From Natronococcus sp. AD-5 (GTDB lineage Archaea; Halobacteriota; Halobacteria; Halobacteriales; Natrialbaceae): a stretch of 64,000 nt of DNA. The stretch lies in contig NZ_CP132295.1 in the NCBI RefSeq assembly GCF_030734285.1, positions 930,001 to 994,000 of the forward strand. The letters are read 5' to 3'. The notes below the pieces were generated by a model that saw nothing but the letters and a program-made list of their open reading frames with translations, made no database searches and had not been told where the DNA came from. The position numbers were made by a program, and so were the translations under genes. Shown piece by piece: positions 23,008-26,680 of this stretch. The first letter of the stretch is position 1, and each line of letters begins with the position of its first letter.

Positions 23008-23352
23008 TTAATCACTGAGTGGTTTTTGAAATGCTGGAGCTGGATCAGTGGGCTGGTCAGGGTCGCACACCCGGATAACACCGTCACCGCGAACAAAGAC
23101 GTTCCAACCAGCAATGGAGAGTCGAAGGAAAATTGGTGGTGTTGACGTGTCGCCACTGTCTGTGAACAGCTGATCTATTGATTCTGGATCAATCGTTTCA
23201 TATAGTGAGTCCAGTTCTGTTGGAGTGATACCTTCAACAGCTGCCACTGCTTCAACGATTGCCAGAGACGATGGCCGTCCATGCTCTTCCCCGAATCGTG
23301 TCTCTCCCAAAGGTGTACATTCACAACAAGTAGATCGGTTCTCATTTACCAT
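23008..23352 (-). CDS. Stand-alone HalOD1 output-domain protein (1)
   Basis: 114 residues. SSLAIVEAVAAVEGITPTEL followed by LDSLYETIDPESIDQLF and a C-terminal beta segment (WNVFVRGDGVIRVCD) fits the HalOD1 output domain found at the ends of haloarchaeal sensor and response-regulator proteins. Here it stands alone, with a short Cys/Glu-rich N terminus (STCCECTPLGE). Its role as a single domain is unknown. A second copy lies at 26426-26680. Confidence 0.75.
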   Translation of the reverse strand: MVNENRSTCCECTPLGETRFGEEHGRPSSLAIVEAVAAVEGITPTELDSLYETIDPESIDQLFTDSGDTSTPPIFLRLSIAGWNVFVRGDGVIRVCDPDQPTDPAPAFQKPLSD

Positions 23353-23859: not shown

Positions 23860-24447
23860 CTACGAGAGTGAGTGGAGGAATTCGTCAATCGTGTTCAAGA
23901 GGCTCTGTTTCAATTCGTTTTCACTGGCATCTTCGTCGCCGTCCCATTCGAACAACTGGTTGCGGTGATCGACGAGGATCATGTAGTGAGCCATCATCCC
24001 ATCAAACGGCTCTTCCTTCGCTTCGAGCGAGGGATACCTCCGTTTCAGGATGTACGTCTTTGTTCGGTATTCCTGGTGGTCGAGGTATCCTGCTTCCCAC
24101 TCGTGCCCACCATCTGCGTGTTCGAAGACGCCAACAATGTGCGTCGCTCGATCAGCGTAAATCTTGAAGTGAGTCGTCCAGTTCTCCCATGCGTCAAGCG
24201 TATCATCGAGAAGGAAAGCGTGACCTTCGTTATAAAGACGGTCGACGGTTTCATCAAGTCGGGATCGTTCTTCCGCGTTGTAACTTCCGAGAACAAAAAA
24301 GGACTGCTCGGCGGCGACTACGTCGAGGATGTCAGTGTGGAGGGAGCGGCGGAGAGAGCGGTATTCTTCGATGCTGAGTTCATGTTCCTCTTTCTCTGAG
24401 TAAGTGAGTGTGTCCTCGATAAGTTGGTGAAGGTGAGGGTTCGACAT
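23860..24447 (-). CDS. Possible nucleotide-processing (NDT/TIR/SLOG-like) protein, divergent from an HTH regulator
   Basis: 195 residues. An N-terminal helical region (1-45) precedes a Rossmann-like core. SFFVLGSYNAEERSRLDETV is a beta strand plus phosphate-loop-like turn, THFKIYADRATHIVGVFEH a second strand, and GGHEWEAGYLDHQEY (113-127) places Glu in a position like the catalytic Glu of nucleoside deoxyribosyltransferases and TIR domains. KTYILKRRYPSLE follows as the next strand. This assignment is by pattern only. The start codons of this gene and the winged-helix gene are 107 nt apart, divergent, which suggests joint control. No leader copy, so it lies outside that regulon. Confidence 0.6.
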   Translation of the reverse strand: MSNPHLHQLIEDTLTYSEKEEHELSIEEYRSLRRSLHTDILDVVAAEQSFFVLGSYNAEERSRLDETVDRLYNEGHAFLLDDTLDAWENWTTHFKIYADRATHIVGVFEHADGGHEWEAGYLDHQEYRTKTYILKRRYPSLEAKEEPFDGMMAHYMILVDHRNQLFEWDGDEDASENELKQSLLNTIDEFLHSLS

Positions 24448-24554
24448 AGTGATGAGGTTTTGCGTGAGGCGAATTCAATACTTGGTTCTCTCCGCAACGA
24501 TGTGGGTCAACACCAACATCGTTATGTGGATGGGGAGAGTAGATTCGAGCAACA

Positions 24555-24965
24555 ATGTCCCAGACCCCGCCTGCAACACACCAGAACGTGCAACAGTTCT
24601 TCGCCGTCGCGGAGGCACTGGCAGAGGAATCACGACGGGACATCGTAGCCGACATCGTCGCCCACCCAAAGGGGAGTCCATCGATGAAAGAGTTGGAGTT
24701 CACAACGGGGCTGCACCGTACGACGATTCACCAGCACCTTGACGCGCTCGGTAACGCGGGAATCGTCGAAAAGGTCGAGATCCCTGCCGGACAGCGGACA
24801 AAAGGACAACCGAGCAAATTCTACACGATTACTGATACTGCTCGGGATATTTTCGATCAGAATAACATCTTTATCGAGGAACACTGGCAGGAGGTCTATG
24901 ATCGCGTAGACAAGCCTGAGGAAATCCAGGAAGCAGAAGCAGCTCCGCGTCCGGATCAAGACTGA
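24555..24965 (+). CDS. ArsR-type winged-helix transcription regulator
   Basis: 136 residues. ALAEESRRDIVADIVAHPKG begins the DNA-binding domain, MKELEFTTGLHRTTIHQHLD is the helix-turn-helix, and the wing is in EKVEIPAGQRTKGQPSKFY. The C-terminal acidic tail is probably disordered. It most likely controls itself and the divergent 195-residue protein through the 107-bp gap (24448-24554). Plus strand inside an otherwise minus-strand block, which suggests an inserted two-gene cassette. Confidence 0.8.
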   Translation: MSQTPPATHQNVQQFFAVAEALAEESRRDIVADIVAHPKGSPSMKELEFTTGLHRTTIHQHLDALGNAGIVEKVEIPAGQRTKGQPSKFYTITDTARDIFDQNNIFIEEHWQEVYDRVDKPEEIQEAEAAPRPDQD

Positions 24966-26425: not shown

Positions 26426-26680
26426 CTAGCTGTCGCGAATGGTCAGCGTATTCCCGGTGATTTGCACGTCATACTCGTCGACTGAGAACGAGAGCGACAG
26501 CGACTCGCAGGTGGTCACGAGCGTATCCAGCGCTTCGGGATCGATCGTGTCGGACAGGACAATCCCGTGAGTTGCTGGTAGGTCAGTGGGAGTACTGTTT
26601 CCGAGATTTGCGATCGCCTCAACGATAGCAACACTCGGTGGCGTTTGCGACCAATCGCATTCGATGTGACGTCGTGCCAT
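26426..26680 (-). CDS. Stand-alone HalOD1 output-domain protein (2)
   Basis: 84 residues, almost only the domain: PPSVAIVEAIANLGNSTPTD, then DTIDPEALDTLV and a final strand pair ending NTLTIRDS. Related to the copy at 23008-23352. It is the last gene of the operon starting at 27335, 4 nt after the small zinc protein. Confidence 0.75.
   Translation of the reverse strand: MARRHIECDWSQTPPSVAIVEAIANLGNSTPTDLPATHGIVLSDTIDPEALDTLVTTCESLSLSFSVDEYDVQITGNTLTIRDS

Follow-up and report, generated by a model that had tools for sequence, protein, structure and literature searches.

A divergent haloarchaeal gene pair encoding a predicted NDT/DNPH1/TIR-fold protein and a 3U1D-type winged-helix regulator

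The locus and its surroundings

The window, by which we mean the whole 64,000-nucleotide stretch analysed here (G000:C2:930001-994000), comes from a haloarchaeal host with a 1.02-Mb second replicon. It carries two genes that start 107 bp apart on opposite strands, at exactly the coordinates given by an earlier sequence-only reading: one, called ORF1 here, encodes a 195-residue protein and the other a winged-helix regulator. The features of the pair are as follows.

23860..24447, minus strand: ORF1, 195 aa with stop, predicted NDT/DNPH1/TIR fold, unnamed haloarchaeal family
24082..24111, minus strand: GGHEWEAGYL motif of ORF1, residues 113-122; E118 and G120 are invariant and G114 is conserved
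24094..24096, minus strand: codon of the invariant Glu118, proposed to be catalytic, a role suggested by DNPH1 E104 (PMC10603095)
24448..24554, no strand: shared divergent promoter region, 107 bp, from start codon to start codon
24496..24523, no strand: 28-bp palindrome AACGATGTGGGTcaacACCAACATCGTT, to which the regulator is proposed to bind as its operator, in a conserved intergenic block
24555..24965, plus strand: regulator, winged-helix, 136 aa, homologous to PDB 3U1D
24876..24962, plus strand: C-terminal tail of the regulator; E128 invariant, R132-P133 nearly invariant

Neither protein has a Pfam or NCBIfam match above cut-off. Compared with their closest relatives, both genes are under strong purifying selection (dN/dS about 0.05-0.1; dS 0.9-1.6 and dN about 0.09 against the nearest ones) and, since homologous pairs also occur across the class, the pair is more than a product of chance.

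The genes around the pair lie mostly on the minus strand, with the regulator as the sole exception. The pair had been said to break the orientation of the block, which is true of the regulator; ORF1 follows the minus-strand majority. The block itself is made of HalOD1, DUF6610, DUF7567 and weak ArdC-like genes, oxidoreductases, exchangers and ordinary metabolic genes; small HalOD1 proteins flank the pair on both sides (window 23008-23352 and 26426-26680, both minus strand). A repeated leader, CCCTC..CCCCTCTCGAGGG..AACAACACCACC, is real at four sites of the plasmid block (25489, 26284, 27342 and 29685) and no copy lies inside the pair, as had been noticed; at these four sites the leader-like repeat can also be written CCCTCCACCCCTCTCGAGGGTG(G)AACAACACCACC. 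No structured RNA was found in the region. Because the flanking DNA is partly common to Saliphagus loci, we regard the pair as part of the plasmid block and not as a fresh insertion, and the earlier idea of a unit inserted into this block becomes doubtful.

Predicted fold and conserved residues of ORF1

AlphaFold (30 sequences) models ORF1 as a five-stranded alpha/beta fold with a pLDDT of 84.9 and a pTM of 0.83, and the five-stranded Rossmann/flavodoxin-like feature of PF05014 is present in this prediction with moderate scores. Searched against the PDB with Foldseek, the model finds TIR-STING (9lmq, E 3e-4) as its top match, together with human DNPH1 (8qhr, 8rpt, 9da6 and 9rpo, TM normalised to the target up to 0.67), plant TIRs and the NDT 9emx. 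The TIR matches (TM 0.42-0.60) are interspersed with DNPH1, and several NDTs appear among the viral structural matches. Values of TM normalised to the query are modest, about 0.35-0.47, and G-protein matches stand among them. The model predicts for ORF1 the fold that the DNPH1/NDT nucleotide N-glycosidases and TIR domains have in common.

Nine residues are invariant in 31 diverse members of the ORF1 family (G54, L71, E109, E118, G120, R136, Y138, W168 and L179) and G114 is kept in at least 90% of them. The glutamate singled out earlier in GGHEWEAGYL is indeed conserved, if by this one means the second, E118; the first, E116, is not. The spacing G114-x3-E118-x-G120 matches that of haloarchaeal DNPH1/NDT proteins fetched for comparison, in which the glutamate of the G-x3-E-x-G motif corresponds to E104, the nucleophile of DNPH1 (PMC10603095). 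The likeness to DNPH1/RCL and NDT (PF05014) thus lies in the predicted alpha/beta fold and in Glu118 at the E104 position. It stops at the extra N-terminal helices of ORF1, at E109, R136 and Y138, which are invariant here and have no clear counterpart in DNPH1/NDT, and at the catalytic Asp: in a manual register the D80 position of DNPH1 would be Lys95 in ORF1, and D/E in the WELG subfamily only. TIR domains (plant RRS1/L6, TIR-STING) resemble ORF1 with Foldseek E values of about 3e-4 to 2e-3 and in the glutamate, which opens the helix that follows the fourth strand region. In contrast, the motif spacing of ORF1 fits NDT better than it fits haloarchaeal TIR-like proteins.

Comparison of ORF1 with the NDT/DNPH1 and TIR families by hhalign gave no significant sequence-level link (P=0.11 and 0.028). 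The NDT/DNPH1 comparison puts E118 in motif register, yet is not significant, and the TIR match is not in meaningful register. No ORF1 member matches PF05014 and none matches TIR profiles above cut-off. A PDB sequence search with ORF1 gave nothing beyond marginal IspH matches at E 0.04, which we take as chance. In sum, the nucleotide-enzyme reading of ORF1 is supported by the model at fold and motif level. Catalysis is plausible at most, because the profile match is not significant and the D80 position reads as Lys95 in the manual register. Both properties on which the sequence-only reading had staked its nucleotide-enzyme proposal, the fold and the conserved glutamate, have held up: the alpha/beta fold is predicted and E118 is invariant.

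Separate TIR-like proteins also exist in haloarchaea (loci L124-L127, e.g. L127:1354-1962), one of them in the host genome. They have a C-terminal cysteine-containing part, a W-x3-E-x-G-Y motif and a weak PF05014 match.

Regulator, pairing and candidate operator

The regulator is modelled as a winged helix with C-terminal helices (pLDDT 86.8). Its best structural match is 3U1D from Halomicrobium mukohataei, and its profile matches 3U1D over the full length and through the tail with an E of 1e-32. The two belong to different subfamilies, with 22% identity in the structural alignment of the window protein. The 3U1D sequence is found at 100% in genome G169, divergent from the gene of a 204-aa ORF1 relative (L154:1462-2682); this neighbour gives 3U1D, an orphan structure, a likely role, and in the library searched we found no literature on 3U1D or on the gene pair. 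Like ArsR/HTH_20 regulators, the window protein has a winged-helix fold and HTH_20, HTH_5 and metalloregulator matches; it differs from them in that these remain below the curated cut-offs (23.9 bits against 27; 21.6 against 22) and in its conserved tail with E128 and Arg-Pro, a conservation that DNA binding alone does not explain.

Relatives of ORF1 occur in 106 of the 125 genomes of the host's family (single-sequence search) and in 263 of 392 class genomes (profile search); 29 of 295 genomes sampled across the phylum are positive, all from the same order. At least 66 haloarchaeal plasmid records carry ORF1. The host genome has three copies of the module, all on C2, the two outside the window (G000:C2:425991-427139 and 1018970-1020068) being of other subfamilies. 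Chromosomal copies in related genera adjoin aldo/keto reductase and urease accessory genes, and the module of the 3U1D genome adjoins a purB-like gene. No family in Pfam, NCBIfam, PADLOC or PHROGs names ORF1, nor do the relatives of ORF1 have any Pfam match of note.

In 20 genomes the regulator lies directly upstream of ORF1 in 54 of 58 ORF1 hits (52 divergent, 2 tandem). Of the four unpaired hits, three are short fragments; the fourth lies at the end of contig G181:C2, with its regulator fragment at the opposite end of the same contig. Reciprocally, 51 of 56 strong regulator hits are paired with ORF1. Nearly every ORF1 among all fetched loci has an upstream regulator, and in annotated plasmid loci an ArsR or HTH gene (once a hypothetical only) diverges from a "hypothetical protein". 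Distance matrices of the partners correlate over 47 thinned pairs with r=0.938, a value reached in 0 of 2000 permutations and to which host relatedness may contribute, though paralogues within one genome still keep their own partners. The co-occurrence proposed in the sequence-only reading is therefore borne out by both counts and correlation. Judged from sequence, the pair is an obligate, class-wide haloarchaeal module, previously unnamed.

The module also comes in variant forms. In the closest relatives, from Saliphagus and Natronococcus jeotgali (L002:4497-5614, L003, L004), regulator and promoter are inverted in place, giving a tandem regulator-ORF1 layout. An invertible switch was considered and rejected: no long inverted repeats were found at the module ends, in the window or in relatives, and the tandem layout therefore looks like a one-off inversion. 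At other loci (L044, L096, L097 and L107:8995-10107) the partner is 370 aa long with a second, C-terminal part resembling another winged helix; those of L096, L097 and L107 pair with larger ORF1 paralogues of about 250 aa.

Between the two genes, the palindrome AACGATGTGGGTcaacACCAACATCGTT is the only intergenic block conserved among relatives. It is kept in tandem loci too and moves with the regulator where the regulator segment is inverted; in most relatives about 44 bp separate its centre from the start of the regulator. The score of the window copy is reached by 1 of 300 shuffles; the scores of relatives L010 and L012, taken alone, are not unusual against shuffles. In the 5.17-Mb genome the palindrome occurs once, allowing up to 3 mismatches. 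When the window-type operator was searched in five genomes, the best matches lay at the module and some 3-mismatch sites lay elsewhere. In the chromosomal subfamily the repeat is another one, confined in 10 of 11 genomes to the module's own promoter region or to the region upstream of an orphan regulator in G111. A sole conserved block that is unique in the genome suggests a dedicated autoregulator; the pair is thus probably self-regulated, as had been suggested earlier.

What the module may do

We give a probability of about 0.55 to the reading that the pair makes up a self-contained module under its own regulation, with a nucleotide-enzyme-type ORF1 held under a repressor. A regulator dimer would bind the palindrome and repress both its own gene and ORF1, which would stay low until a signal releases repression. 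ORF1 would then bind a nucleotide (dNMP-, NAD- or related) and cleave its N-glycosidic bond via Glu118. The C-terminal tail of the regulator would contact ORF1 or a ligand of ORF1; such a contact would explain the tight co-evolution of the partners and the absence of intact ORF1 without a regulator.

The best placed alternative, held tentatively, is a toxin-antitoxin-like unit. In it ORF1 would restrict growth as a glycohydrolase of nucleotides or NAD, and the regulator would be both autorepressor and, via its conserved tail, an antitoxin that neutralises ORF1. Loss is asymmetric. Four genomes (G111, G120, G126 and G157) keep a regulator without an adjacent ORF1; in G157 the purB-like neighbour is the same as in the 3U1D genome, the regulator is kept and ORF1 is gone. 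The three orphan regulators checked (among L168, L169, L170 and L171) are under purifying selection, with dN/dS about 0.06-0.11, and two of these loci, L169 and L171, retain the operator. At several loci the regulator is intact and the ORF1 beside it is interrupted or truncated; the 20 genomes yielded no intact ORF1 that lacked a regulator. We also considered that ORF1 had been swapped for another effector beside the orphan regulators, and rejected it: the neighbours differ and share no common gene. A regulator that outlasts ORF1, never the reverse, hints at toxin-antitoxin-like behaviour, but a dispensable ORF1 would leave regulators behind as well. The toxin-type label of the sequence-only reading has its one footing in this pattern, which makes it possible.

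The module is patchy, multi-copy and often on plasmids, and three loci have a tandem layout with the regulator ahead of ORF1; against this stand the stable chromosomal copies and the usual divergent layout. With type II toxin-antitoxin systems the module shares, by pairing alone, an obligate DNA-binding partner; its conserved unique palindrome is a candidate operator at which the regulator may act on its own gene; unlike them, it does not form a single operon. RES-type toxin-antitoxin genes likewise usually form an operon, whereas the layout here is usually divergent. NatR-NatT, of the RES type (PMC11535050), shows that NAD-depleting toxin/antitoxin pairs exist, and resembles our pair in joining an antitoxin partner to a nucleotide-cleaving one, both of them candidates only in our case.

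Somewhat more doubtful is a regulated metabolic or house-cleaning enzyme: ORF1 would hydrolyse nucleotides in the manner of DNPH1, and its dedicated regulator would sense the substrate or product. DNPH1 is in fact the best-matching enzyme structure, haloarchaea hold genuine DNPH1/NDT proteins as well, and the module is near-universal in the host's family, with stable chromosomal sites by aldo/keto reductase, urease or purB-like genes and the divergent regulator-target layout typical of ligand-sensing repressors. Yet no separate ligand domain is obvious in the regulator, one third of the class genomes lack the module, its diversification is fast, and most subfamilies do not conserve the canonical catalytic Asp. 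This missing second acid would be less of a surprise if ORF1 were a non-enzyme nucleotide-binding co-regulator that tunes the DNA binding of the regulator. Such a split sensor would suit the obligate, co-evolving pair, the single operator per genome and the conserved tail; it is improbable, since a regulator whose single site lies in the promoter region of its own gene would have nothing but ORF1 as output, and an enzyme is what the invariant Glu118 would lead one to expect.

An antiviral unit acting by abortive infection, one form of the defence unit that the sequence-only reading had proposed, is very unlikely: NDT- and TIR-type folds are found in many defence systems and TIR-STING is the top structural match, but neither the pair nor its window neighbours have a PADLOC match worth the name, no sensor component accompanies the pair and many chromosomal loci are stable, by metabolic genes. 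A defence island was rejected on the same absence of PADLOC matches and on plasmid-type and metabolic neighbours, and a virus-borne unit was rejected as well, with no match to ORF1 in phage records and no relatives confirmed in IMG/VR viral contigs.

The self-regulated module under a repressor remains our preferred reading. Its boldest form, which we consider unlikely, is a previously unnamed, class-wide archaeal toxin-antitoxin-like system: a dedicated winged-helix autorepressor of the 3U1D family would directly neutralise glycohydrolases of nucleotides or NAD that form a new NDT/TIR-fold family, with a private operator for each subfamily. About two thirds of the sampled class genomes carry the pair, many in several copies, and the module places the orphan solved structure 3U1D in a genetic context, next to a partner and an operator. 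Each regulator examined has one apparent private DNA site, and operator recognition and its co-evolution with ORF1 are thus directly testable in haloarchaeal laboratory strains. If it is true that ORF1 cleaves nucleotides or NAD, the family would form a large new branch of this fold in archaea.
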